A stretch of 27,690 bases of DNA. Source: a virus. The position numbers and the translations under genes are program-made. Below are positions 1 through 10,082 of this stretch, one piece after another. The notes under the pieces are model-generated. The model made no database searches. It saw only the letters and a list, made by a program, of their open reading frames with translations, and was not told where the DNA came from. Where the stretch lies: positions 1-27,690 of the IMG/VR virus record IMGVR_UViG_3300034093_000612; one strand, given 5' to 3'. Position 1 is the stretch's first letter; each line of letters starts with the position of its first letter.

Positions 1-66
1 CATGTTGGTTAGAGCAGTGGACTCATAATCCATTGGTGCCGAGTTCGACTCTCGGGGAGCCCACCA
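1..66 (+). tRNA. tRNA with CAT anticodon, Met or Ile2 (5' end cut by window)
   Basis: The first few bases (5' acceptor strand) lie outside the window. A D-arm remnant, an anticodon arm with CAT in the loop CTCATAA, a T-arm with TTCGACT loop and an encoded CCA end are visible. The anticodon region resembles bacterial tRNA-Ile2, where CAT is modified to read AUA, so Ile2 is as likely as Met. It is the first visible member of the tRNA array. Confidence 0.85.
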
Positions 67-73
67 GAGATAT

Positions 74-149
74 GTACGCATGACCCGAATGGCTAGGGAG
101 CGGATTGCAAATCCGTATCATGCAGGTTCGAATCCTGTTGCGTACTCCA
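74..149 (+). tRNA. tRNA-Cys (GCA)
   Basis: Full cloverleaf. The acceptor GTACGCA pairs with TGCGTAC, the anticodon loop is TTGCAAA, the T-loop is TTCGAAT, and CCA is encoded after discriminator T. Confidence 0.95.
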
Positions 150-158
150 AGATAGTTG

Positions 159-187
159 TTGACTTTTAATCATTATTGATGTATAAT
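159..187 (+). promoter_or_regulatory. sigma70-like promoter inside the tRNA array
   Basis: TTGACT (159-164), a 17-nt spacer and TATAAT (182-187). The -35 continues as TTGACTTTTAATC and the -10 is preceded by G, as in the other promoters of this phage. Predicted start is near 194. The leader 194-252 has complementary CCTC/GAGG and CTTTACGTAAAG segments but no ORF. It should re-initiate transcription for the downstream tRNAs. Confidence 0.8.
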
Positions 188-252
188 AAAGTTTCTGAAG
201 TCCTCTCTGAGTCTTTACGTAAAGTCGGAAGCCTGAGGCATTAGAAAAGGTT

Positions 253-284
253 TGGTAGGTTTTTCCTTATACAAAAACCTACCA
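253..284 (+). other. perfect 12-bp inverted repeat (RNA hairpin)
   Basis: TGGTAGGTTTTT (253-264) pairs perfectly with AAAAACCTACCA (273-284) around an 8-nt loop, four bases before tRNA-Glu. There is no T-run after the stem, so it is not a standard terminator. It may be a processing or stability element. Confidence 0.75.
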
Positions 285-288
285 CTAT

Positions 289-363
289 ACTGCGTTCGAC
301 TTCAGGTGAGGTCATCACCCTTTCAAGGTGACTAGATGGGATCGTTACCCATACGCAGTACCA
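289..363 (+). tRNA. tRNA-Glu (TTC)
   Basis: The acceptor ACTGCGT pairs with ACGCAGT. The anticodon stem TCACC/GGTGA holds loop CTTTCAA (anticodon TTC). The T-stem ATGGG/CCCAT holds loop ATCGTTA, which departs from the usual TTCGANN. CCA is encoded. The odd T-loop lowers certainty slightly. Confidence 0.85.
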
Positions 364-370
364 GAATTTC

Positions 371-456
371 GGAGAATGAGCAGCATTGGTGACTGCAGCG
401 GACTGTAAATCCGTCGCCTTACGGCACACTTGGTTCGATTCCAAGATTCTCCACCA
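371..456 (+). tRNA. tRNA-Tyr (GTA), long variable arm
   Basis: An 86-nt class II tRNA. GGAGAAT pairs with ATTCTCC, the anticodon loop is CTGTAAA (GTA), there is a long variable arm and a TTCGATT T-loop, and CCA is encoded. Confidence 0.95.
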
Positions 457-658
457 AATCTCGTTACTACTTTCGTTAAAGTAGCGTTTGACTAGCGATA
501 GAGGTTCGGTGGCAGAAGACCGTTAGCGAGTGTATACGACCCACTCAGGCTCTGATAGGCAGAATCTTAACTGCACACAGACTTTGAATAAATGGAGATG
601 GACAGAGTAACTGCTCAATTAAGGGCTGGCATGGAAACCAGTAGCTTATACTTATTTT
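457..658 (+). other. structured non-coding spacer between tRNA-Tyr and tRNA-Asp
   Basis: About 200 nt without a convincing gene. Several local hairpins are visible: CTACTTT/AAAGTAG around CGTT near 468-485, CGGT/ACCG near 508-523, GAGTG/CACTC near 528-546, GCAG/CTGC near 560-574, and CTGG/CCAG near 626-641. This density suggests a stable phage RNA, in the manner of the extra stable RNAs of the T4 tRNA region. No family is recognised and the ends are uncertain. Confidence 0.4.
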
Positions 659-733
659 GGCTCGTTCGTATAGGGGTTATTACGTCGGATTGTCTATCCG
701 ATCACGGGAGTTCGAGTCTCCCACGAGTCGCCA
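659..733 (+). tRNA. tRNA-Asp (GTC)
   Basis: GGCTCGT pairs with ACGAGTC (one G-T), the anticodon loop is TTGTCTA in stem TCGGA/TCCGA, the T-loop is TTCGAGT, the discriminator is G and CCA is encoded. Confidence 0.95.
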
Positions 734-738
734 GTTTT

Positions 739-794
739 AGGATCCGTCCAGCAAATCAAAAAAATTCAACTTGTAATTGAAAAATAAGGATCCT
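739..794 (+). ncRNA. recurrent stem-closed RNA element, copy A
   Basis: AGGATCC (739-745) pairs with GGATCCT (788-794). It is followed on the inner 5' side by GTCCAGCAA (746-754) and after the 3' strand by GTTGTTTATTA. An inner TTCAA/TTGAA hairpin lies at 765-781. The same layout recurs at 964-1022, 2868-3074 and 5196-5291 with different but complementary stem sequences. It begins 5 nt after the CCA of tRNA-Asp, so tRNA processing could set its ends. Function unknown. Confidence 0.6.
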
Positions 795-806
795 GTTGTT
801 TATTAT

Positions 807-881
807 GCCTCGTTAGCTCAGTGGTAGAGCAGTGCTTTTACACGGCGAAGGTCGGCAGTTCGAAACTGTCACGAGGTACCA
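807..881 (+). tRNA. tRNA-Val (TAC)
   Basis: GCCTCGT pairs with ACGAGGT, and the T-arm is GGCAG-TTCGAAA-CTGTC. The anticodon region CTTTTACACGG matches Val TAC, with loop TTTACAC. The anticodon stem GTGCT/GGCGA has two G-T pairs and a terminal G-A mismatch, so it is somewhat weak. CCA is encoded. Confidence 0.88.
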
Positions 882-887
882 AGTTAT

Positions 888-958
888 TGCGGGTATTCAG
901 GGTATCGGTAAGTCTCATAAGCTCTACCTAGTAGGTTCGAATCCTACACCCGCAACCA
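888..958 (+). tRNA. aberrant tRNA with CAT anticodon (Met-like), possibly decayed
   Basis: The acceptor TGCGGGT/ACCCGCA and T-arm GTAGG-TTCGAAT-CCTAC are perfect and CCA is encoded. The gene is only 71 nt. The D-arm region (897-908) does not form a normal 4-bp stem. The anticodon stem TAAGT/GCTCT flanking CTCATAA has only three pairs unless a C is bulged. It is either an unusual but active tRNA-Met or a pseudogene in an early stage of decay. Confidence 0.6.
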
Positions 959-963
959 GTTTT

Positions 964-1022
964 AGGTTAAGTTCAGCAATATAAAAAGGCTGTCTGCTAG
1001 GACTTTAAACTAGTGTTAACCT
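964..1022 (+). ncRNA. recurrent stem-closed RNA element, copy B
   Basis: AGGTTAA (964-970) pairs with TTAACCT (1016-1022). It is followed inside by GTTCAGCAA (971-979) and outside by GTTATTTTATG. A weak CTAG/CTAG hairpin lies at 997-1013. It starts just after the CCA of the preceding tRNA and ends 10 nt before tRNA-Thr. Compared with copy A every variable stem base has changed yet pairing is kept, which supports an RNA structure. Confidence 0.62.
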
Positions 1023-1032
1023 GTTATTTTAT

Positions 1033-1106
1033 GCCCTTTTAGTATAATGGTATTACACCTGTTTTGTAATCAGGTTACGGCAGTTCGATTCTGTCAAGGG
1101 GCACCA
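1033..1106 (+). tRNA. tRNA-Thr (TGT)
   Basis: GCCCTTT pairs with AAGGGGC (one T-G), the anticodon is TGT in loop TTTGTAA, the T-loop is TTCGATT and CCA is encoded. Confidence 0.93.
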
Positions 1107-1108
1107 TC

Positions 1109-1185
1109 TATAAGCACATACTCTACGCCCGATTAGTAAGGGAGATAGCGACTAAACGCTGAAGGAAAGTTTAAATGTGTTTATA
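1109..1185 (+). ncRNA. RNA element closed by an 11-bp stem
   Basis: TATAAGCACAT (1109-1119) pairs with ATGTGTTTATA (1175-1185), 11 bp with one G-T. Inside are AGCG/CGCT around ACTAAA and a CTC/GAG pairing. It fills the whole gap between tRNA-Thr and tRNA-Met. It lacks the CAGCAA signature of copies A, B and those at 2868 and 5196, so it is either a different class or a diverged member. Confidence 0.5.
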
Positions 1186-1188
1186 AAT

Positions 1189-1263
1189 GGTGATGTAGCA
1201 CAGTGGTAGTGCACCTCCTTCATACGGAGATGGTCGTTGGTTCAAATCCAACCATCACCACCA
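1189..1263 (+). tRNA. tRNA-Met (CAT)
   Basis: GGTGATG pairs with CATCACC, the anticodon loop is TTCATAC in stem CTCC/GGAG, the T-loop is TTCAAAT and CCA is encoded. Its D-arm and acceptor closely resemble those of tRNA-Thr(GGT) at 1550, suggesting duplication with anticodon change. Confidence 0.92.
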
Positions 1264-1274
1264 AAAGTTTTTAT

Positions 1275-1348
1275 CTCGATGTAGTGAAATGGTATCACCC
1301 GTGCTTTGGGAGCATGTAGCGCAAGTTCGATTCTTGCCATCGAGACCA
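1275..1348 (+). tRNA. tRNA-Pro (TGG)
   Basis: CTCGATG pairs with CATCGAG, the anticodon loop is TTTGGGA, the T-arm is GCAAG-TTCGATT-CTTGC and CCA is encoded. Confidence 0.94.
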
Positions 1349-1369
1349 AGTTATAAGTAGTATGTATTT

Positions 1370-1453
1370 GCCCCGATGGTGGAATGGTAGACACGCTGGT
1401 CTTAGAAGCCAGTGCCGAAAGGCGTGAGAGTTCGAGTCTCTCTTGGGGCACCA
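1370..1453 (+). tRNA. tRNA-Leu (TAG)
   Basis: An 84-nt class II tRNA. GCCCCGA pairs with TTGGGGC, the anticodon loop is CTTAGAA, there is a long variable arm, the T-loop is TTCGAGT and CCA is encoded. Confidence 0.95.
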
Positions 1454-1462
1454 TAGTTTTAT

Positions 1463-1538
1463 TCCCTAGTAGCACAGCGGTAGTTGCACTTGACTGTTAA
1501 TCAAGGTGTCCGTGGTTCGATCCCACGCTGGGGAGCCA
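1463..1538 (+). tRNA. tRNA-Asn (GTT)
   Basis: TCCCTAG pairs with CTGGGGA, the anticodon loop is CTGTTAA in stem TTGA/TCAA, the T-loop is TTCGATC, the discriminator is G and CCA is encoded. Confidence 0.95.
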
Positions 1539-1549
1539 ATTTTAAGAAA

Positions 1550-1624
1550 GCTGATGTAACACAGTGGTAGTGTACTTCCTTGGTAAGGAAGAGGTCGTGA
1601 GTTCAAATCTCGCCATCAGCACCA
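1550..1624 (+). tRNA. tRNA-Thr (GGT)
   Basis: GCTGATG pairs with CATCAGC, the anticodon loop is TTGGTAA in stem CTTCC/GGAAG, the T-loop is TTCAAAT and CCA is encoded. The body is close to tRNA-Met at 1189, while the anticodon stem equals that of tRNA-Gly(GCC) at 2031. Confidence 0.94.
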
Positions 1625-1642
1625 AAGTTTTAGGAGAGTATT

Positions 1643-1777
1643 ATGGCTAATGTTAAGCAAGGTAATTTGACTAAGTCTCCGCAATGGTGGAAACATTTGA
1701 AAGACTTCAAACGTTTCTTTTGGAAAACAGAACGTAAAGCTCAACAAAAAGATATTAAAGGTAGATTGTATGAGTAA
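1643..1777 (+). CDS. small basic conserved phage protein, 44 aa, function unknown
   Basis: A 44-residue protein starting MANVKQGNLTKSPQWWKHLK, rich in Lys, Arg and Trp, with no membrane segment. TAGGAGAG lies 8 bases upstream of the ATG, a strong ribosome binding site. The gene sits inside the tRNA array and its 3' end overlaps the next ORF by 8 bases, so the two are probably coupled. Such short basic proteins are often virion or nucleic-acid-associated, but nothing here decides that. Confidence 0.75.
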   Translation: MANVKQGNLTKSPQWWKHLKDFKRFFWKTERKAQQKDIKGRLYE

Positions 1778-1946
1778 GATGAGTGACGGTGGTAAAGGTT
1801 CATCTCCTAGACCATTTAGTATTAATCAGGATGAATATGAGAAGCGTTGGGATTATATCTTTAGTCGCGATCTCAAAAAAGATGAGTCTGAAGAAAAGGT
1901 TACTAGAAATAATCAAGAGACTCAAGAAGTGTTAAGTAAAAAGTAA
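1770..1946 (+). CDS. conserved phage small protein (SDGGKGSSPRP type), 58 aa
   Basis: The protein begins MSKMSDGGKGSSPRPFS, followed by a charged, probably helical segment (QDEYEKRWDYIFSRDLKKD) and a polar tail. The Gly-Lys-Gly-Ser-x-x-Arg-Pro start followed by a WDxIF-like motif is one I recall from many tailed phages as a conserved protein of unknown function. The start overlaps the upstream gene, and the stop lies 3 nt before tRNA-Trp, so the mRNA runs directly into tRNAs. Confidence 0.78.
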   Translation: MSKMSDGGKGSSPRPFSINQDEYEKRWDYIFSRDLKKDESEEKVTRNNQETQEVLSKK

Positions 1947-1949
1947 AAT

Positions 1950-2024
1950 ATCTCTCTGGTGTAATGGCAGCATCACGGATTCCAAATCCGTTAGGTCAGG
2001 GTTCGAGTCCTTGGGGGGATGCCA
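1950..2024 (+). tRNA. tRNA-Trp (CCA)
   Basis: ATCTCTC pairs with GGGGGAT (two T-G pairs), the anticodon stem CGGA/TCCG holds loop TTCCAAA, the T-loop is TTCGAGT, the discriminator is G and CCA is encoded. Confidence 0.92.
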
Positions 2025-2030
2025 AGTTAT

Positions 2031-2106
2031 GCGGGTGTAGCTCAGTTGGTAGAGCACTTCCTTGCCAAGGAAGATGTCAGGAGTTCGAGCCTCCTTACCC
2101 GCTCCA
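2031..2106 (+). tRNA. tRNA-Gly (GCC)
   Basis: GCGGGTG pairs with TACCCGC, the anticodon loop is TTGCCAA, the D-arm is canonical, the T-loop is TTCGAGC and CCA is encoded. Together with tRNA-Gly(TCC) at 6977 it gives the phage two Gly isoacceptors. Confidence 0.96.
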
Positions 2107-2137
2107 AGTTTTTAATGGAGAAGTAAAAGGTGTAATC

Positions 2138-2620
2138 ATGCGTAAAATCGATATAGATGAAGTTAAAGCATTCATTGAAAGCCAAAGTCCAGAGACAAAG
2201 ATCTACATTGGTGGAGACTCTGAACGATTTAATATTGGAAATGATTGGTACGCAGATTACACACTTGCAATTGTTGTTCACATTGATGGTAAACACGGTT
2301 GTAAGATTTTCGGTGAAGTGCAACGTGAACGTGACTGGGATCAAAAGAAAAACAGACCACGTATGCGTTTGATGAATGAAGTATACAAAATTGCAGAGTT
2401 GTACAACAAGTTGCATGATGTGCTAGAAGATAGGATTGTTGAAGTTCACTTGGACATTAACCCAAACGAAATGCACGGTAGCTCTTGTGTTATCAACGAA
2501 GCAACTGGCTACATTCGTGGTATGTGTAACGTAGTGCCAATGGTTAAGCCAAACGCATTCGCTGCATCATACTGTGCTGATAGAATGAAACACATTCTGT
2601 CTGAACGTAAAGCTGCTTAA
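2138..2620 (+). CDS. RNase H-like protein of the YkuK/DUF458 family
   Basis: A 160-aa protein. The pattern IYIGGDSERF, TLAIVVHIDG, then REGxRD-like charged residues, VEVHLDINPNE and INEATGYIRGM matches the YkuK family (DUF458), which has an RNase H-like fold with acidic residues D29 (GGDSE), D115 (HLDIN) and E131 region. A nuclease role on RNA or RNA-DNA hybrids is inferred from fold membership. The frame stays open back to 1964, but that would translate two tRNAs. The ATG at 2138, after GGAGAAGTAAAAGG, is the sensible start. It lies 31 nt after tRNA-Gly and 9 nt before the next ORF. An RNA-acting role would fit the RNA-rich surroundings. Confidence 0.8.
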   Translation: MRKIDIDEVKAFIESQSPETKIYIGGDSERFNIGNDWYADYTLAIVVHIDGKHGCKIFGEVQRERDWDQKKNRPRMRLMNEVYKIAELYNKLHDVLEDRIVEVHLDINPNEMHGSSCVINEATGYIRGMCNVVPMVKPNAFAASYCADRMKHILSERKAA

Positions 2621-2629
2621 GGATAATAT

Positions 2630-2854
2630 ATGTGGTGGATCAAACTTAAAGATAAACAAGCGTATGAAAATCTTATGAGACAGTATGGGGTTGAACCTCG
2701 TATTCTAAGAGATGACGGTGATTATATTCAAGTTGAATTTAGTCAAGCTGCTCTTAGTGCTTGGATTCAAGCTGGATACTGGTTTGGTGGTCCACCAAAC
2801 ATCTTTGTAAGAACATATAAAAAATGTTTGACTTTCTTTAAGAATCTGCTATAA
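2630..2854 (+). CDS. small protein of unknown function, 74 aa
   Basis: MWWIKLKDKQAYENLMRQYG opens a compact alpha/beta-looking protein that ends in a basic, aromatic tail (RTYKKCLTFFKNLL). AAGGATAA upstream gives a good ribosome site, and the gene is 9 nt behind the YkuK-like gene, so they form one unit. The last 27 bases contain the -35 and most of the -10 of the promoter for the next operon, so coding and promoter sequence overlap. Not recognised. Confidence 0.65.
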   Translation: MWWIKLKDKQAYENLMRQYGVEPRILRDDGDYIQVEFSQAALSAWIQAGYWFGGPPNIFVRTYKKCLTFFKNLL

Positions 2855-2855
2855 T
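2828..2855 (+). promoter_or_regulatory. promoter for structured RNA and bug-type gene
   Basis: TTGACT (2828-2833), a 16-nt spacer and TATAAT (2850-2855). The -35 extends as TTGACTTTCTTT. Predicted start is near 2862, six bases before the terminal stem of the RNA at 2868-3074. The promoter overlaps the 3' end of the upstream ORF. Confidence 0.75.
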
Positions 2856-2867
2856 AGTGTTAGAAAT

Positions 2868-3074
2868 GGGATGACTTCAGCAAGTTTAAAAGAACTTACT
2901 AAAGAGTGCCACTAAAGGAGGACCACCGTAAGGTGTAATTACGTGGCTGGGCAATGAAGCTGAAACAAAATAATGACTCTGGAAAGACAGAACAATGATG
3001 GTAGACCATCTGATTTACGCTGGGTTTTAAAAGAGCGTGGTTCCAAGTAAACCGATAAACGTCCCGATCATCCC
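2868..3074 (+). ncRNA. 207-nt structured RNA/leader, copy E of the recurrent element
   Basis: The terminal stem GGGATGA (2868-2874) pairs with TCATCCC (3068-3074). Inside the 5' strand comes CTTCAGCAA (2875-2883), the signature shared with copies A, B and C. The 3' strand is followed by GATATTTTAT. Internal helices include GCCAC (2908-2912)/GTGGC (2943-2947) enclosing CACC-GTAA-GGTG (2924-2935, a GNRA tetraloop), GATGG/CCATC with a TAGA loop (2997-3010), and GGTTT (3023-3027)/AAACC (3049-3053). It lies between a promoter and the bug-type gene, so it is either a 5' UTR element or a separately stable RNA. No known riboswitch class recognised. Confidence 0.65.
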
Positions 3075-3095
3075 GATATTTTATAAAGGTATATA

Positions 3096-3998
3096 ATGAA
3101 TATTGTAAAAGTTGTTTTATCTTCATTTGTTTTATGCTTGGCTCTGTCTGCCAATGCATTTGATCCTAAATCTAAATCCATTCAAGTTATAATGCCATTT
3201 TCTCCAGGTGGAGGCGTCGATCAAACTTTTAGGCATTTACAAAAGTATGCTGCCAATAAAGGTATTGTAATGGTAGGCGTTTATAAACCAGGAGGTGAAG
3301 GTATTGTATCAATCAATGAATTGAATAACTCGCCAAAAGATGGATACGCTGTTTCAGTAACTACTGCTGCAGTTATTGCAGAGAATAGAGTTCGAGGTAC
3401 AGATGTTTTACCGATAACAGCTATTCGCGATAACATCACCAGTATACTTTCTAGTGTTAAAAGTAATTTAACTACTGTTGATGATTTAGAACGAGCAATT
3501 AAAAATGGCGATAAGATATCTTTAGGGCATGGGGCACCTGCACAAAAATTAGTTTTAGAACAATTTGTAGAATTCACTAAAACAAAACACGAAGCACTAT
3601 TGGTGCCATACAAAGGTGGTGCACCAGTTATTAATGATCTTGTAGCAGGTCATATTGATGTAGGTGTTGTTCCTTACAGTGTTGCTAAAAACCATATTGC
3701 TTCTGGTAAAGTTAACTCACTTGCAATTGCTGCAAAGGAAAAGCCAAAGGGTATTAATGCGTTTAACATCGAACAAAAATATCCTACATGGCAACACTTT
3801 GATGGGTTTGCGTTAGTTGTTTCTAATGGTACTAACGTAGAAGCTGTCAAATGGTGGAGTGGTTTTATGCAGGAATATTTAAATGATCCACAGGTACAAA
3901 ACGATTTTCTGCTAGAAAATACTGTTGCTTCTGCTTTTGGAATTCTAAGTTTAGAAAAGACAATTAAAGCCAGTGTTGGTAGATTACAAAAGAAGTGA
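3096..3998 (+). CDS. Bug/TctC-family periplasmic solute-binding protein
   Basis: A 300-aa secreted binding protein. The N-terminus MNIVKVVLSSFVLCLALSAN is a clear signal peptide with likely cleavage after ANA at residue 22. The mature part begins with the family pattern IQVIMPFSPGGGVDQTFR, then PGGEG, SLGHGAPAQK, VPYKGGAPVINDLVAGHID and a two-lobe periplasmic-binding length. Bug/TctC proteins capture small carboxylates or similar solutes and in bacteria often feed tripartite tricarboxylate transporters. No transporter subunits are here, so the phage would supply only the receptor to the host periplasm. AAAGG precedes the ATG by 8 nt. It follows the structured RNA and is 1 nt from the PP-loop gene. 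It is an auxiliary metabolic gene by character. The family is especially numerous in Burkholderiales, a hint to the host. Confidence 0.88.
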   Translation: MNIVKVVLSSFVLCLALSANAFDPKSKSIQVIMPFSPGGGVDQTFRHLQKYAANKGIVMVGVYKPGGEGIVSINELNNSPKDGYAVSVTTAAVIAENRVRGTDVLPITAIRDNITSILSSVKSNLTTVDDLERAIKNGDKISLGHGAPAQKLVLEQFVEFTKTKHEALLVPYKGGAPVINDLVAGHIDVGVVPYSVAKNHIASGKVNSLAIAAKEKPKGINAFNIEQKYPTWQHFDGFALVVSNGTNVEAVKWWSGFMQEYLNDPQVQNDFLLENTVASAFGILSLEKTIKASVGRLQKK

Positions 3999-3999
3999 T

Positions 4000-5151
4000 A
4001 TGCAAAATTACTACGGCGGATATTATGTAGTTGGTGACGAGAGATTTACCAGCAAAACTATGGCAGCAATTAGAGCCACAGAATTAAACATTCCAATGAC
4101 ATGGAATTTTCATGATGATATTTTCAGCAAGGTTAAGCCTACTGGAAAAGCAGACTTAAAAGAGTTATATAAACAACGTGCCTTGCAGCTTAGAGACAAA
4201 TATGACTATTTAATATTAAATTATAGTGGTGGTAGTGACAGCTGGACTGTACTGCATACCTTTTTAGAAAATAATATTAAACTAGATCATGTCTTTGTCA
4301 AATGGCCAAAGGCTGCTATGGATAAGGGATTTTATACTCCCAATGCTAATGATAGATCTGCTTTTAACTTTGCCAGCGAATGGGATTTTACATTGAAGAA
4401 AGATCTTGAGTGGTTAGCTCAAGCCCATCCAGAGATTAAGATTGAGGTTGGTGATTGGTTAGATAATCTCAATGAAGGTTACTTTACTGACGACTTGTTC
4501 CAAAGAACTGTTAATGATAACTTCATGACAAATCTGTTGAGAGGACATTACGGCAGCGAAACCGAAACGTTATTGGTTGATAAAGGAATGCGTGTTGGTT
4601 CTATCTACGGAGTTGATAAACCAACGATATTGGTTGCTGGCACTAAATGCTTTTTCTATTTTGTAGATCAGGCTACAGCAACATGTCCACCTAGACCAGA
4701 GAATCCAGAAGGTACAGAGTATTTTTATTGGTCACCTGACATGCCGCAAATAGTTGTTGAGCAGGCATATAAAGTATATCAATTGTATAAGGTAAATAAG
4801 AATCTTAATAAAAATCTTATACTTAGTACCTATAGAGATTCTGCGAAAAGACAAACTGAATTGTTGGCTCATATGAAACTGTTTGAAGAATCTTCAGATT
4901 TCATTAGAAGTGTGATTTATCCAGACTGGAACTTTGCAAAGTTCCAAGCCTTTAAGCCCATGCCTGTTCCAGAATTCGATGGAAAGCAAAAGGATTACTG
5001 GTTAGAATGTAGACCAGAAATGCTTGCAATGAAGGATGTATGGAGACATCATTGGAAATCTTACATAGATAAGGTAGACCCAAAATGGTTGCATGAGAAT
5101 AAAGAATTTAGAAAAGCTAGAACACGGTTGCACTATCTGTGTGAAGCATAA
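4000..5151 (+). CDS. PP-loop ATP pyrophosphatase-like protein (SGGSDS), 383 aa
   Basis: The sequence LILNYSGGSDSWTVLH (residues 71-86) is the PP-loop of N-type ATP pyrophosphatases, the superfamily of asparagine synthetase, GMP synthetase, QueC, TilS and PAPS reductase. Such enzymes adenylate a substrate and release pyrophosphate. There is no glutaminase domain. The C-terminal half is rich in Tyr and Trp (for example YWSPDMPQIVVEQAY and WRHHWKSYID) and is not recognised. Substrate unknown; amidation, or modification of a tRNA or nucleoside, is possible. The start at 4000 follows AGAAG and overlaps nothing; an in-frame ATG at 3973 would overlap the Bug gene. It is followed by a promoter. A second PP-loop gene lies at 27199. 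Confidence 0.75.
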   Translation: MQNYYGGYYVVGDERFTSKTMAAIRATELNIPMTWNFHDDIFSKVKPTGKADLKELYKQRALQLRDKYDYLILNYSGGSDSWTVLHTFLENNIKLDHVFVKWPKAAMDKGFYTPNANDRSAFNFASEWDFTLKKDLEWLAQAHPEIKIEVGDWLDNLNEGYFTDDLFQRTVNDNFMTNLLRGHYGSETETLLVDKGMRVGSIYGVDKPTILVAGTKCFFYFVDQATATCPPRPENPEGTEYFYWSPDMPQIVVEQAYKVYQLYKVNKNLNKNLILSTYRDSAKRQTELLAHMKLFEESSDFIRSVIYPDWNFAKFQAFKPMPVPEFDGKQKDYWLECRPEMLAMKDVWRHHWKSYIDKVDPKWLHENKEFRKARTRLHYLCEA

Positions 5152-5155
5152 GTTG

Positions 5156-5184
5156 TTGACTTTTATTCTTACTTAAGGTATAAT
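5156..5184 (+). promoter_or_regulatory. promoter for RNA copy C and DUF2828 gene
   Basis: TTGACT (5156-5161), a 17-nt spacer and GTATAAT (-10 at 5179-5184), beginning 5 nt after the PP-loop stop codon. Predicted start near 5191 places the terminal stem of copy C (5196) almost at the 5' end of the transcript. Confidence 0.82.
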
Positions 5185-5195
5185 AAAAGTTCGTT

Positions 5196-5291
5196 AGGTT
5201 AGGTTCAGCAAAATCTTAGCGGATTAATACCCGCATCATAAGATGGTGAGTTTCGAGTTCTCACCCTAAACAAAAAGTAGGAAACTAGCCT
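5196..5291 (+). ncRNA. structured RNA copy C with T-arm-like hairpin (Y-RNA-like candidate)
   Basis: The terminal stem AGGTTAG (5196-5202) pairs with CTAGCCT (5285-5291) with one G-T pair. The signature GTTCAGCAA follows at 5203-5211 and the tail GTTATTTTTAGG follows the 3' strand. Inside, ATCTTA-GCGG (5213-5222) pairs with CCGC (5231-5234) and TAAGAT (5239-5244) with a 4-nt bulge. Directly stacked is GGTGAG (5245-5250)/CTCACC (5260-5265) with loop TTTCGAGTT, which carries the TTCGA of tRNA T-loops. A strand CTAAACAAAAAG closes the element. Ends that pair, a U-rich tail, a tRNA-like part and a position just upstream of a Ro-like gene match the general plan of bacterial Y RNAs. That identity is inferred. 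Confidence 0.6.
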
Positions 5292-5300
5292 GTTATTTTT

Positions 5301-5316
5301 AGGAGAATCCTCTCCT
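5301..5316 (+). promoter_or_regulatory. hairpin sequestering AGGAGA upstream of DUF2828 gene
   Basis: AGGAGA (5301-5306) pairs with TCTCCT (5311-5316) around ATCC, followed by GTTACTT. It echoes the AGG...CCTGTTA ends of the larger element. The AGGAGA is about 28 nt from the ATG at 5335, too far to serve directly. The nearer GAAAGAA is the only other ribosome-site candidate, so initiation may depend on this structure. Confidence 0.5.
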
Positions 5317-5334
5317 GTTACTTGAAAGAAATAT

Positions 5335-6771
5335 ATGAACACATTTGTATCCGCTGTCCAAAATCAATCTGCCCGCACTGCGAATGGCATGGTTGCTCGT
5401 AAATCCACTGCATCAGCTTGCGTTGACTTGTTCTTCAAAGCTGGCGCATCACGTGGTAAGAACATCACCAAAGAATTTACTGCCGCTCTAGTAGAGAACG
5501 AAGACGTAGCAATGCGTCTGGCTCTATGGCTGCGTGACGCACGTGGTGGTGCAGGTGAACGTGAGTTGTTCCGTCAAATCATGGTGCACTTGGAAACTTA
5601 TCGTCCAGAGTTGGCAGCAAAGCTGTTGCCAAAAGTTCCAGAGTTGGGTCGTTGGGACGACGTGTTCGTTTTCAAGACTGAGGCTTTGAAGACTCAAGCA
5701 TATAGCATGCTTGGTGACGCATTGCGTGAAAAGAATGGTCTGGCTGCAAAGTGGACTCCACGTAAGGGTGATGTAGCTGTTGAAATCCGTAAGTTTTTCG
5801 GCATGTCTCCAAAGTTCTACCGTAAGTCCTTGGTTGAAATGACTAAGGTTGTTGAACAAGAAATGTGTGCACAAAAGTGGGATGAAATCAACTTCTCCCA
5901 TGTTCCATCTGTGGCTGCTGCTCGTTACAAGAAGGCATTCTTCCGTAACACTCCAGAGTATGCAAAGTACGTAGCTGAGTTGATCAAGGATCCAAAGGAT
6001 CGCACTATGAACGTGAAGATCAATGCTGGTGCTGTATTCCCATACGATGTGCTTAAGGGTGCTATCGGTGGTTACACTAAGAGCTACAACTCTACCGAGT
6101 TGGGTGCGTTGCAAGCCCAATGGGATGCCTTGGAAAACTTCATTGGTGATGCTAACGTATTGCCATTGGTTGACGTTTCTGGCTCTATGACATGCGCAGC
6201 AGGTGGTCGCACCTCTAAGTCCCAAACTACATGTTTGGACGTTGCAGTCTCTTTGGGATTGTATATGGCTGACAAGAACAAGGGTAAGTTCAAGGATACG
6301 TTCCTGACTTTCTCTGGTGCACCAGAACTGTTGTACTTGAAGGGTAACATCGTTGACAAGATCAAGCAGATGTCTGACTCTAACTGGGGAATGAACACTG
6401 ACTTGGTGAAAGCCATGAAGAAGATTCTTGATACTGCCGTAAAGGGTGGTGTTCCTCAAGAAGAAATGCCAGAAATGTTGTTGATCATGTCTGATATGCA
6501 ATTTGACCAATGCGCAAAGTTTGACGACTCCGCAATGCAAATGATTGCACGTAAGTTCGAAGAAGCAGGATACGAGATCCCAAAGATCGTGTTCTGGAAT
6601 TTGAACGCAGCAGACAATGTGCCAGTTAAGTACGACACTCGTGGCGTAGCACTGGTATCTGGATTCTCTCCAGCTATCATGGTTGCATTGCTTGGTGGTG
6701 ATACTGAAAAGTTCACTCCAGAAGCAATCATGTTGAAAGCACTTATGGTGCCAAAGTACGACTTAGCTTAA
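5335..6771 (+). CDS. DUF2828 protein: TROVE/Ro-like helical domain plus vWA domain
   Basis: A 478-aa protein. Residues about 20-260 are a helical repeat region with the family hallmarks LWLRDARGGAGERELFR (65-80), VPELGRWDDVF (101-111), KWTPRK (139-144) and FFRNTPEYAKY (202-212). Residues about 272-470 form a von Willebrand A domain with a complete MIDAS site: DVSGSM (280-285), T355 in NTD, and SDMQFD (386-391). I recall DUF2828 as a divergent relative of TROVE-vWA proteins such as Ro60/Rsr, which form RNA-binding rings that dock Y RNAs and misfolded RNAs. The protein is therefore probably a cytoplasmic RNA-binding factor. It has its own promoter and a 140-nt leader containing RNA copy C, and is followed by a 9-bp hairpin and a further structured RNA. 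Codon use is GC-richer and more uniform than in flanking genes, suggesting high expression. RNA binding is inferred, not shown. Confidence 0.85.
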   Translation: MNTFVSAVQNQSARTANGMVARKSTASACVDLFFKAGASRGKNITKEFTAALVENEDVAMRLALWLRDARGGAGERELFRQIMVHLETYRPELAAKLLPKVPELGRWDDVFVFKTEALKTQAYSMLGDALREKNGLAAKWTPRKGDVAVEIRKFFGMSPKFYRKSLVEMTKVVEQEMCAQKWDEINFSHVPSVAAARYKKAFFRNTPEYAKYVAELIKDPKDRTMNVKINAGAVFPYDVLKGAIGGYTKSYNSTELGALQAQWDALENFIGDANVLPLVDVSGSMTCAAGGRTSKSQTTCLDVAVSLGLYMADKNKGKFKDTFLTFSGAPELLYLKGNIVDKIKQMSDSNWGMNTDLVKAMKKILDTAVKGGVPQEEMPEMLLIMSDMQFDQCAKFDDSAMQMIARKFEEAGYEIPKIVFWNLNAADNVPVKYDTRGVALVSGFSPAIMVALLGGDTEKFTPEAIMLKALMVPKYDLA

Positions 6772-6782
6772 TAGGTTCGCAT

Positions 6783-6808
6783 TGACTGGTGTGCGTTATC
6801 ACCAGTCA
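6783..6808 (+). terminator. 9-bp hairpin after the DUF2828 gene
   Basis: TGACTGGTG (6783-6791) pairs with CACCAGTCA (6800-6808) around an 8-nt loop, 11 nt after the stop. No U-tract follows, so it may be a weak terminator, an RNA-stability stem or an attenuator in front of the RNA at 6810. Confidence 0.5.
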
Positions 6809-6809
6809 C

Positions 6810-6960
6810 CATAATTCAGTATATTTCTGTCTTTATTGGGGTTTTAGGTTCCACGATAGGTATGCCAGATCGAGACTAGACTTGCAAGGTAATGCTCGAC
6901 GTAACATACTAATACCTACAGACGAAAATTGACAATCGTTTGGGAATATACTGAATTATG
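6810..6960 (+). ncRNA. RNA element closed by a perfect 16-bp stem
   Basis: CATAATTCAGTATATT (6810-6825) pairs perfectly with AATATACTGAATTATG (6945-6960). Inside, TAGGTAT (6857-6863) pairs with ATACCTA (6912-6918) and TCGAG (6870-6874) pairs with CTCGA (6895-6899). Its 3' end abuts the late promoter TATAAATA. No ORF. It is closed by the pairing of its ends like the other elements, but it has only a partial CCAG match in place of the CAGCAA signature. Confidence 0.6.
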
Positions 6961-6961
6961 G

Positions 6962-6969
6962 TATAAATA
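6962..6969 (+). promoter_or_regulatory. T4-type late promoter TATAAATA
   Basis: The exact octamer TATAAATA used by gp55-type late sigma factors lies only 7 nt before the first base of tRNA-Gly(TCC). Initiation 6-8 nt downstream would give a tRNA precursor with almost no 5' leader. Confidence 0.65.
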
Positions 6970-6976
6970 CCTTTAT

Positions 6977-7050
6977 GCGGGTAAGCTCAAGGTGAGACGC
7001 CAGCCTTCCAAGCTGCGCTGAGTGGAGTTCGATTCTCCCTACCCGCTCCA
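6977..7050 (+). tRNA. tRNA-Gly (TCC), outside the main array
   Basis: GCGGGTA pairs with TACCCGC, the anticodon loop is CTTCCAA in stem CAGC/GCTG, the T-loop is TTCGATT and CCA is encoded. It is separated from the array by about 4.9 kb and placed behind a late-type promoter, so it may be supplied late in infection. Confidence 0.94.
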
Positions 7051-7062
7051 CTTTTTAATTTT

Positions 7063-7287
7063 ATGTATTTCGTTACAAAACAAGAATATGCGAGTAGAAT
7101 TTCCATCTGTAAAGGATGTGAACTCTACTCGCATTTTTTATGTACAGAATGCGGATGTGCAATACATCTTAAATGCAAGGTTGCTTTTGTTTCTTGTCCC
7201 ATAGGTAAATGGAAAGAGACCGATGATTCTACTGTAGATGATACAATTGGGGATAGCGATGATAGTTCTATTTTTACTTCAGATTAA
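7063..7287 (+). CDS. small zinc-binding protein with multiple Cys pairs, 74 aa
   Basis: Cysteines at 16, 19, 27, 30, 32, 38 and 45 form CKGC, CTECGC and SCPIGKW motifs, a zinc-ribbon arrangement followed by an acidic Asp/Ser-rich tail (residues 52-74). Similar CxxC...CPxGKW miniproteins are frequent in T4-like phages with no known role. The start ATG lies 12 nt after tRNA-Gly with only a poor ribosome site, so expression may be low or coupled to tRNA processing. The tail overlaps the next gene. Confidence 0.7.
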   Translation: MYFVTKQEYASRISICKGCELYSHFLCTECGCAIHLKCKVAFVSCPIGKWKETDDSTVDDTIGDSDDSSIFTSD

Positions 7288-9068: not shown

Positions 9069-10082
9069 ATGCGTAAATTAGCTACTATTCGTGTGATTGA
9101 TGCACTGAATCCTATCGAGGGTGCAGATGCCATCGAGTGCGCAACCATCGGTGGATGGAAAGTTGTTGTTAAGAAGGGTGAGTTCAACGTTGGTGATCGT
9201 GCAGTCTACTGCGAGATTGACTCATGGATTCCTACAGAGTTGGCACCATTCTTGTCTAAAGGTAAAGAGCCTAGAGAGTTTGAAGGCATCAAAGGTGAAC
9301 GTCTGCGTACTGTTAAGTTGCGTGGTCAACTGTCACAAGGTTTGCTATTGAATCTAGACTCTGCTATCCCACAAACCAATTCATTCGCTGATGGTGACGA
9401 TGTTTCCGAACTGCTGAATATCGTCAAGTGGGAAATGCCAATGAATGCTCAGTTGGCTGGTATGGCAAAGGGTAACTTTCCATCACAGATTCCCAAGACT
9501 GACCAAGAACGTGTGCAGAATCTTGTTGGAGAAATCCTTGCTGCTGCACAAGCTGGCACTCAGTTTGAACTCACTGAGAAGCTGGAAGGCTCTTCAATGA
9601 CTGTATACCTAATTGATGGTGTGTTTGGTGTTTGCTCTCGTAATCTTGACCTGAAGGAAACAGAAGGTAACTCTTTCTGGGCTACTGCTCGTCATGATGG
9701 TATTGAAGAAAAACTACGCACATTGGATATGGATAATATTGCAATTCAAGGTGAGTTGATTGGTCCAGGAATCCAAGGTAACATCTACAAGTTGTCTCAA
9801 CCAGAGTTCCGTGTGTTTGATATTTACAATATCAAAATGGGTGAGTATGTAACACCATCAGCACGACGCAGGTATGTTGACCAACTGGGTCTGAAACATG
9901 TTCCAGTTTTGCTGATTGATAAAGATCTTGGTGTTGGTTCTGTCGATCAAATTCTTCAATGGGCAGAAGGTGCATCAAAGTTAAATGACAGGCAAGAACG
10001 AGAAGGAATTGTGTTCAAGGAAGTAAATGGTGGCATGTCATTCAAAGCCATCTCTAACAAGTACCTCTTAGGAGAAAAGTGA
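9069..10082 (+). CDS. RNA ligase, Rnl5/DraRnl type
   Basis: A 337-aa ATP-dependent ligase. Residues 1-130 form an N-terminal OB-like module (MRKLATIRVIDALNPIEGAD, GDRAVYCEIDSWIP). The nucleotidyltransferase domain follows: motif I EKLEGSS with Lys171, SRN at 190-192, GEL at 228-230, motif III FDIYN (250-254), motif IV EGIVFK (312-317) and motif V SFKAIS (324-329). The N-terminal OB domain before the catalytic domain is the arrangement of the Deinococcus DraRnl family rather than T4 Rnl1 or Rnl2. It would seal 3'-OH/5'-phosphate breaks in RNA, for example nicked tRNAs. AAGGAATT precedes the start. The stop overlaps the next start (ATGA). The 5' kinase in the same operon supplies a matching end-healing function. 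Confidence 0.9.
   Translation: MRKLATIRVIDALNPIEGADAIECATIGGWKVVVKKGEFNVGDRAVYCEIDSWIPTELAPFLSKGKEPREFEGIKGERLRTVKLRGQLSQGLLLNLDSAIPQTNSFADGDDVSELLNIVKWEMPMNAQLAGMAKGNFPSQIPKTDQERVQNLVGEILAAAQAGTQFELTEKLEGSSMTVYLIDGVFGVCSRNLDLKETEGNSFWATARHDGIEEKLRTLDMDNIAIQGELIGPGIQGNIYKLSQPEFRVFDIYNIKMGEYVTPSARRRYVDQLGLKHVPVLLIDKDLGVGSVDQILQWAEGASKLNDRQEREGIVFKEVNGGMSFKAISNKYLLGEK

Follow-up and report, generated by a model that had tools for sequence, protein, structure and literature searches.

Ro Proteins and Putative Y RNAs of Phages

Proteins of the Ro type, and RNAs put forward as Y RNAs, have already been published for phages. Excerpts of the literature describe TROVE proteins of jumbo phages (PMC7824862) and the Ro-like protein of vB_VhaM_pir03 (PMC7765460). 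In excerpts of an account of Listeria phage CKA15, the authors match a protein to Rsr, propose nearby abundant RNAs (CKA15_059-061, up to 2 kb from the gene) as possible Y RNAs and cite mycobacteriophage Y RNAs from Chen 2014 (PMC12282133). Here we describe a related locus in a stretch of viral DNA of 27,690 nt (IMG/VR record IMGVR_UViG_3300034093_000612, positions 1–27,690, one strand; hereafter the window), which contains a gene for a DUF2828 protein and four copies of a small RNA element with a CAGCAA core, one of them in the leader of that gene. This locus very probably encodes a phage Ro/Y-type ribonucleoprotein (RNP), with binding and expression of the RNAs being putative. What is new here is how large and modular the RNA family is, together with the tRNA parts carried as inserts; in the open-access literature no account was found of the CAGCAA family, of elements carrying an anticodon arm or an acceptor stem alone, or of tRNAs with an inserted stem.

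Two other described systems bear on the RNAs. Dictyostelid Class I RNAs, which in the excerpted account are known from dictyostelids alone, are 42–65 nt long in D. discoideum. Their end stem shows compensatory changes, its 5′ arm is adjoined by a motif of 11 nt, the middle is variable and the 3′ end is CUGU (PMC7919456). In addition, phage tRNAs that are insensitive to anticodon nucleases have been proposed, in the part of the source at hand, as a phage answer to host tRNA attack (PMC10264068).

The DUF2828 Protein

The open reading frame (ORF) at 5335–6771 (+ strand) encodes a protein of 478 amino acids that matches the Pfam families DUF7788 (a von Willebrand factor A, or vWA, domain) and DUF2828, as well as PHROG 850, annotated as 'RNA-binding protein'. 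Relatives are found by tblastn in 682 of 50,697 phage records, every one with less than 60% identity. An AlphaFold2 model based on 41 sequences (L050 was excluded from the protein alignment because of a stop in frame) has a mean pLDDT of 81.7 and a pTM of 0.77. Foldseek returned ten matches to this model in the Protein Data Bank (PDB) at E ≤ 0.001, every one of them Ro60, Rsr or TROVE. Similarly, the top ten rows of the VIA-align comparison are all Ro/TROVE proteins (Z 12.6–19.5 over 383–404 residues, phiLo Ro60 9l5y and 9kop included). The highest Z-score, 19.5 over 396 residues, belongs to 9kop ('Trove domain'); the Ro60 dimer of Thermus phage phiLo scores 17.7 and human Ro60 15.6. After these ten rows come proteins that share the vWA domain alone, at Z of about 10. 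The DUF2828 protein is thus predicted to have a Ro/TROVE fold, helical repeats plus vWA domain, over its whole length. This agrees with the original prediction, made before the comparison of the model with Rsr and Ro60, of helical repeats and an intact metal ion-dependent adhesion site (MIDAS) on the Ro60/Rsr plan. The DVSGSM loop, T355 and D387 are invariant across the 41 aligned sequences, and likewise D280, S282 and S284; we take D280, S282, S284, T355 and D387 to be the MIDAS positions (DxSxS...T...D).

The resemblance does not extend to the sequence, as identity to the same ten structures is 13–18%. The TROVE family of Pfam (presumably PF05731) does not appear when the 41 relatives are matched to Pfam at E up to 1, a list of 20 families, indicating that the Ro kinship is visible by fold and not by sequence. 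PF25045 (vWA_Ro60) matches just two of the 41 relatives, with a best E of 0.023, and a sequence-profile search of the PDB with the DUF2828 protein found no Ro protein, so that fold comparison alone found Ro. Depositors have reached a similar view of some relatives: that of Ochrobactrum phage OC is labelled a putative Ro sixty-related protein via HHpred, and several mycobacteriophage records carry the label 'Ro-like RNA binding protein'.

DUF2828 genes were also identified at 23 loci in contigs of bacterial and archaeal genomes, all of them metagenome-derived records that may be phage, and several of these loci bear the RNA elements described below (L238, L240 and L246, for example). DUF2828 genes in metagenome-assembled genomes (MAGs) of Oscillospiraceae (L244, L247, L248) have CAGCA elements upstream by rule, and that of an Akkermansiaceae MAG (L253) has an upstream CTGCA-type element by eye; these genes may be bacterial or may come from phages. 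Some elements of this gut-MAG set appear by eye to carry T-arm or permuted tRNA inserts.

A Family of RNAs with a Covarying Closing Stem

All four copies in the window, each on the + strand, belong to one RNA family characterized by a closing stem of approximately 8 bp, the sequence N(U/A)NCAGCAA adjoining the 5′ arm, a very variable insert and a 3′ end of CUGU type (CCTGTT-like in the window copies, CCCGAT in element D). Element C (5195–5292) is of the leader type. Its ends, UAGGUUAG and CUAGCCUG, pair in a stem (TAGGTTAG/CTAGCCTG) with G-U in two of eight pairs, which is followed by GTTCAGCAA, a bulged hairpin (5213–5244), a GGUGAG..CUCACC hairpin (5245–5265) with the loop UUUCGAGUU, and an A-rich strand. 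Support for this element comes from covariation, and the folding of 5190–5300 is beaten by only 1 of 200 shuffles (z −3.24). Element C sits behind a sigma70-like promoter (5156–5184, +, 11/12 matches), and the transcription start of this promoter would be expected at the 5′ end of the element. A promoter-like site of the same type lies just upstream of element D (2828–2855, +, 11/12 matches); over 1–7200, sites resembling promoters are overall no more enriched than in shuffles (19 vs 17.4).

The original prediction placed an RNA with paired ends and a bulged hairpin between promoter and start codon, and all of these features were recovered. It also described a stacked hairpin resembling a tRNA T-arm; the hairpin is present, while the likeness is loose in that the loop has 9 nt rather than 7. 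The further copies that it placed at 739, 964 and 2868 hold as well, the last as an element of 209 nt. Element A (738–795; stem TAGGATCC/GGATCCTG, followed by GTCCAGCAA) displays a feature that had been missed, namely a textbook anticodon stem-loop at 765–781, UUCAA CUUGUAA UUGAA, with a Thr UGU loop. Element B (963–1023) has the stem TAGGTTAA/TTAACCTG, the core GTTCAGCAA and a hairpin at 997–1013; both A and B are also found in locus L002. Element D (2867–3075) represents a long class, in which the paired ends UGGGAUGA and UCAUCCCG form the stem TGGGATGA/TCATCCCG beside CTTCAGCAA and enclose a multibranched insert. A search of the whole window with Rfam at gathering level matched tRNAs alone, and no Rfam family accounts for element D.

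The family was examined further in loci of DUF2828 relatives from viral contigs, of which the best 80 of 87 stretches were used. Most leaders in these loci follow the same plan with different arms and middles. Two loose stem scans were discarded: in the first, the reverse strand was equally rich (811 vs 798; one shuffle 450), which led to tests based on motifs alone, and the second was noisy (168 on each record's richer strand vs 42 on the other). In the motif-only test, elements were picked from the window and the 80 loci by their 5′ and 3′ motifs without regard to pairing (L001, a piece of the window, was excluded). This gave 180 distinct elements on the coding strand and three on the opposite strand, the counts here and below being of distinct sequences and not of independent origins. 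Pairing at all four variable stem positions was observed in 136 of the 180, compared to 16.3 expected with shuffled partners, and the picked elements comprise 35 arm combinations. Furthermore, double changes occur in 7 of 18 predicted pairs of leader class C (17 sequences) and in 13 of 28 predicted pairs of long class D (11 sequences). The covarying closing stem marks the RNA family as real.

Co-occurrence of the RNAs with the DUF2828 Protein

By a strict pairing rule, the element is present in 59 of 72 DUF2828 leaders, often near the start codon (8 of the 80 loci were omitted because the gene start or upstream DNA was missing). Of the other ORFs at these loci, 36 of 524 have one, and after shuffling of the leaders 1.15 of 72 do. 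Among the 13 misses are leaders of the window type (L002–L006 and L013), which have too many G-U pairs for the rule but in which the element is visible by eye.

The association also holds in the opposite direction. Scanning of viral contigs with a strict short-element pattern alone gave at least 119 loci (L082–L200), some of them on contigs that are near-copies of each other. Contigs of at least 68 kb (range 68–338 kb) were tested in two batches of 27 and 9, and among the matches listed 33 of these 36 carry PHROG 850 (24/27 and 9/9); for comparison, a DUF2828 relative is present in 682 of 50,697 phage records. An E-value for PHROG 850 is by itself a weak test, since at E ≤ 0.001 this family also finds matches in 6 of the 14 cellular genomes used as controls. 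The matches listed for the contigs are near full-length, with E below 1e-134.

Cultured phages were examined in non-coding stretches near the gene, picked by hand in 12 phages. By the strict rule these contain 21 elements; the reverse strand has 2, and shuffled sequence 1.55. Eight of the 12 phages are positive (Synechococcus phage BUCT-ZZ01, Cronobacter phage S13, Salmonella phage UAB_Phi87, KVP40, Listeria phage List-36, Campylobacter phage F336, Staphylococcus phage 6ec and Aeromonas phage LAh_6), and in two more, Pseudomonas phage Milchi and Mycobacterium phage Breezona, elements that differ in the last dinucleotide are visible by eye. The upstream RNA anticipated by the original prediction is therefore present beside DUF2828 genes of other phages, and the element-bearing phages span Gram-negative and Gram-positive hosts. 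Many of them have tRNA arrays close by, although none is so annotated in Breezona. RNA ligases are encoded in the window (9069–10082) and in LAh_6, and RtcB is encoded in List-36.

tRNA Parts in the Inserts

The inserts are rich in recognizable parts of tRNAs. In short inserts (20–45 nt) from the window and the protein-chosen loci, a set free of selection for short elements, the loop of the best hairpin is 7 nt long in 28 of 52 cases (4.3 in shuffled sequence), and 22 of these 28 loops have U33 and a purine at 37 (0.6 in shuffled sequence). A wider set of 425 distinct elements from 164 records was compiled from the window, the protein loci and the pattern-scan matches listed; the pattern-chosen loci bias its count of 230 short inserts towards short elements. 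An anticodon-type arm is present in 125 of these 230 (3.2 in shuffled sequence), and 103 of the 125 loops have exactly the sequence of an anticodon loop from an ARAGORN tRNA in these loci (0.36 in shuffled sequence). The most frequent loops are Thr UGU (33), Lys UUU (23), Asn GUU (10) and Arg UCU (9), followed by Ser GGA and Tyr GUA (6 each). Individual loops occur on different complementary stems, with four for Thr UGU, six for Lys UUU and four for Arg UCU. By eye, elements of a Salmonella phage (L206:7922–7975) and a mycobacteriophage (L209:5432–5520) share the loop UGCGGAU, which is no standard anticodon loop.

Long inserts contain larger portions of tRNAs. A T-arm followed by a loop-closed acceptor stem is found in 13 of 84 (0.4 in shuffled sequence), and 8 of the 13 also have a D-arm behind (0.1 in shuffled sequence). 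Judged by the order of their arms, these T-arm/acceptor/D-arm inserts correspond to a circularly permuted tRNA opened between the D and anticodon arms. Some permuted inserts hold a complete anticodon arm (L011:3073, for example), and some show ACCA in the acceptor loop. In L010:483 and L007:525, by eye, the D, anticodon and T arms are in normal order and the stem replaces the acceptor.

In a further class the relationship is reversed, and the stem is inserted in a tRNA. Cronobacter phage S13 has two annotated tRNA genes, one of 121 and one of 113 nt; both are tRNAs in normal order, carry CCA and possess a Ro-type stem behind the D arm, closed by a short loop. By eye, in the 113-nt gene this stem clearly separates the D arm from a complete anticodon arm, and it may lie inside the anticodon arm in the 121-nt gene. 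The Rfam tRNA model accepts both genes (56.9 bits for the 121-nt and 40.9 bits for the 113-nt gene). Of 54 such closed stems among the matches listed, 24 are enclosed by a 7-bp stem ending in NCCA, vs 147 of 3000 random anchors, with at least three of the 24 (L161, L086, L002) looking by eye like ordinary tRNAs or coding sequence. Additionally, forms of 56–64 nt consist of an acceptor stem with CCA and a Ro-type stem only (L147, L111 and L136). Elements with an anticodon arm alone cannot form a complete cloverleaf with CCA, whereas the inserted-stem class fits the Rfam tRNA model.

Comparison with Known RNAs

The ends of the bacterial Y RNA YrlA (RF02553) pair, and those of the phage elements likewise pair in a helix. 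The permuted class of phage elements has the same order as YrlA, with T-arm, capped acceptor and D-arm; this order is not present in the window's own four copies. Unlike YrlA, the phage elements have a CAGCAA core and several copies per genome, and their inserts include anticodon arms, acceptor-CCA minihelices and normal-order tRNAs. The YrlA model, run at low threshold on eight sources, gave best scores of 20.7 and 21.4 bits vs a cut-off of 69, which argues against plain YrlA membership. The score of 21.4 bits reflects the alignment of the middle mycobacteriophage element (locus L209) to the T-arm, acceptor and D-arm of YrlA in permuted order.

The phage elements share with the Class I RNAs the overall plan of end stem, 5′-arm motif, CUGU end and variable middle. 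The consensus of the 5′-arm motif in the Class I model (RF01414) is CCUUACAGCAA. This model matches element A with 28.6 bits (E 0.0015 in a 316-base search), which is below its cut-off, and it matches five CAGCA stems in Aeromonas phage LAh_6 and one in BUCT-ZZ01. At E ≤ 1, matches occur in 28 of 29 records (best E 9e-6, best score 33.9 bits), and the cut-off of 41.5 bits is reached in none of the 29; at the same E-value the model also matches 7 of 14 control genomes. Eleven of the better matches, those compared by eye, coincide with element cores. In the mycobacteriophage element aligned to YrlA above, the 5′ part matches the Class I RNA and the middle matches YrlA, both weakly. Unlike the phage elements, Class I RNAs are eukaryotic, and the excerpted account names no Ro or DUF2828 partner for them (PMC7919456). 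The likeness may reflect convergence on the binding site of one protein, or common descent.

The excerpts of the CKA15 account used for comparison do not describe the stem, the core motif or tRNA inserts (PMC12282133). In List-36, which is related to CKA15, the 400 nt next to the gene contain three CAGCA cores, and the non-coding stretch 1–2 kb upstream has none. The List-36 locus also contains a stretch of 1 kb upstream of the Ro-like gene without annotated coding sequence or CAGCA core (L208:4002–5072), which may correspond to the RNAs found abundant in CKA15. The nuclease-insensitive phage tRNAs mentioned above likewise come from tRNA-rich phages; according to the same excerpt they are working tRNAs (PMC10264068), unlike the tRNA pieces on a Ro-type stem described here.

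Proposed Function and Alternatives

By computation, the locus combines a Ro fold, an RNA family with a covarying stem, co-occurrence of the two, and inserts of tRNA parts. Both the fold and the neighborhood tests favor the phage Ro/Y interpretation put forward in the original prediction. Ring function, RNA binding, expression and decoy action build on these observations as proposals. The DUF2828 protein would form a Ro-type ring of helical repeats and vWA domain, and it most likely binds the small RNAs at their stem, some 8 bp long, and at the unpaired NUNCAGCAA next to it; such binding is suggested by the fold, by the paired ends and by co-occurrence. In Ro60/TROVE proteins, Y RNA is bound on the outer side of the ring, and ends of RNA are bound in its cavity. 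The small RNAs would be made from the same genome, with one at the 5′ end of the protein's own mRNA, and each would show another module on its stem, which may be as small as an anticodon arm or acceptor-CCA minihelix, or else a tRNA, whole or permuted, or a larger fold. With a constant stem and a changing module, the particle looks like a rack for tRNA parts. The displayed anticodon loops and CCA ends are sites of tRNA enzymes, and many of the phages have tRNA arrays nearby while some encode an RNA ligase, which favors a reading of the modules as baits or inhibitors of host tRNA enzymes, for example anticodon nucleases or those modifying CCA ends. The Ro protein would keep these bait RNAs stable and concentrated. 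Of the jobs named in the original prediction, RNA quality control, guidance of a nuclease and protection of tRNAs may each still apply; inserts of anticodon arms and tRNAs favor a role aimed at tRNA-acting enzymes. The combined reading, a Ro/Y-type RNP that displays tRNA mimics as baits, is rather probable. Its function is the weakest part, and a decoy action against tRNA-attacking host enzymes is put forward tentatively, as a little less probable than its opposite.

Several observations weigh against this reading. The evidence for these RNAs is computational throughout, with binding and expression predicted. Three of the 36 element-bearing contigs among the matches listed are without PHROG 850, though these may be fragments, and the non-coding stretches examined in Stenotrophomonas phage DLP6 and Ochrobactrum phage OC contain no element. 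These two phages and the sub-threshold YrlA scores stand against the full generality of the reading and against plain YrlA membership, respectively. The identification of the abundant CKA15 RNAs with the elements is unsupported, as the stretch 1–2 kb upstream of the gene in List-36 is without a CAGCA core. Folding energies at 738, 963 and 2867 are no better than chance (z −1.28, −0.26 and −1.53), and it is comparison rather than folding energy that shows the window copies other than C to be real. Of the inserts, 105 of 230 short ones are without an anticodon arm of this type, 71 of 84 long ones are without the permuted T-arm and acceptor by rule, and classes C and D have no evident tRNA counterpart. 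The idea that the decoy carries a host-type loop and the phage's own tRNA an altered one yielded no rule. Among the matches listed, 23 short anticodon elements from 21 regions were compared with the region's own tRNA for the displayed anticodon, and this tRNA shares the loop in 13, has another loop in 7 and is absent in 3 (two of the regions are near-copies of others and supply two of the seven different loops); this split does not single out a decoy role.

The Ro/Y degradation or quality-control particle, in which a nuclease, either host PNPase or one of the phage, is linked to the ring by the RNA and the tRNA module docks or gates instead of acting as bait, stays a strong rival, though on present evidence an unlikely one. 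It draws on the same protein fold and on the T-arm, capped acceptor and D-arm order, which is the YrlA module, as well as on Ro-PNPase tethering in Deinococcus as given in the excerpted CKA15 account (PMC12282133). A possible phage partner is the PF04308 RNase H-like protein, encoded in the window at 2126–2620 (+, Pfam match). A PF04308 gene is present in 16 of 28 DUF2828 phage records by profile, compared to relatives of the window copy in 78 of 50,697 phage records by tblastn (the methods differ), and in KVP40 it immediately follows the Ro-like gene. However, PF04308 has no match in the other 12 of the 28 records, and the many different anticodons, lone anticodon arms and lone acceptor ends are left unexplained by a degradation particle.

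It is improbable that the elements are tailored tRNA genes in which the stem serves as an intron-like or permutation device that is removed or sealed, with the Ro-like protein as a processing factor. Such a role would be in keeping with the normal-order tRNAs of L204, L201 and other loci, which encode CCA and have the stem next to the anticodon arm, with the permuted forms of L007, L014, L063 and L064, where ACCA separates the two halves of the acceptor, and with the RNA ligases in the window and LAh_6. The many elements with an anticodon arm alone and some with an acceptor minihelix alone, however, cannot yield a tRNA, and several permuted forms have a loop of 3–6 nt without CCA (L011, L021, L053, L057, L074). 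Less probable again is a mainly cis-acting leader, through which the protein would regulate its own mRNA with the other copies as by-products. The frequency of leader elements near the start codon is in line with autoregulation, but many elements lie elsewhere, in tRNA-rich stretches and with inserts of their own, and element D has its own promoter-like site. Finally, chance repeats or functionless tRNA debris can practically be dismissed, given that the degenerate look of several tRNA pieces and the single-sequence folding of A, B and D are outweighed by the covarying stems (136/180 in the pairing test), the conserved core and the strong co-occurrence with the protein.

Other Features of the Region

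Elements A and B are located within a tRNA array (1–2106, +) with 13 ARAGORN tRNAs, all in 74–2106; the window start cuts through one tRNA. The array also contains approximately 200 nt of non-tRNA sequence (457–658, +), possibly a further RNA. Two tRNA-like genes on the same strand, at 887–958 and 6977–7050, were missed by ARAGORN and give weak covariance matches at 887–955 and 6977–7047. Between the Ro gene and the second of these lies a structured RNA (6808–6962, +), in which a perfect 18-bp inverted repeat surrounds a branched RNA; 6776–6970 folds at z −6.07 vs shuffles, and the structure is without an Rfam match above cut-off. The region additionally encodes a TctC-type solute-binding receptor (PF03401; 3096–3998, +) inside the phage tRNA/Ro region and, between elements D and C, an ORF of 392 amino acids (3973–5151, +) without a match in Pfam or PHROG at E ≤ 0.001.

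Implications

A broader interpretation, doubtful but worth stating, is that DUF2828-type Ro proteins and CAGCAA-stem RNAs are an ancient RNP class of phages and eukaryotes. The Class I RNAs would then be its amoebal branch, bound by a Ro-type protein, and in phages the particle would act as a rack of tRNA mimics against tRNA-attacking defences. A possible partner class is thereby offered for the orphan dictyostelid Class I RNAs. The inserted-stem class may account for some misfit 'tRNA' annotations of 113–121 nt, as in Cronobacter phage S13. With the RNA family described here, the 'RNA-binding protein' genes of many phages (682 records) gain likely RNA partners, and the question of why phages carry many tRNA-like genes becomes testable from a new side.

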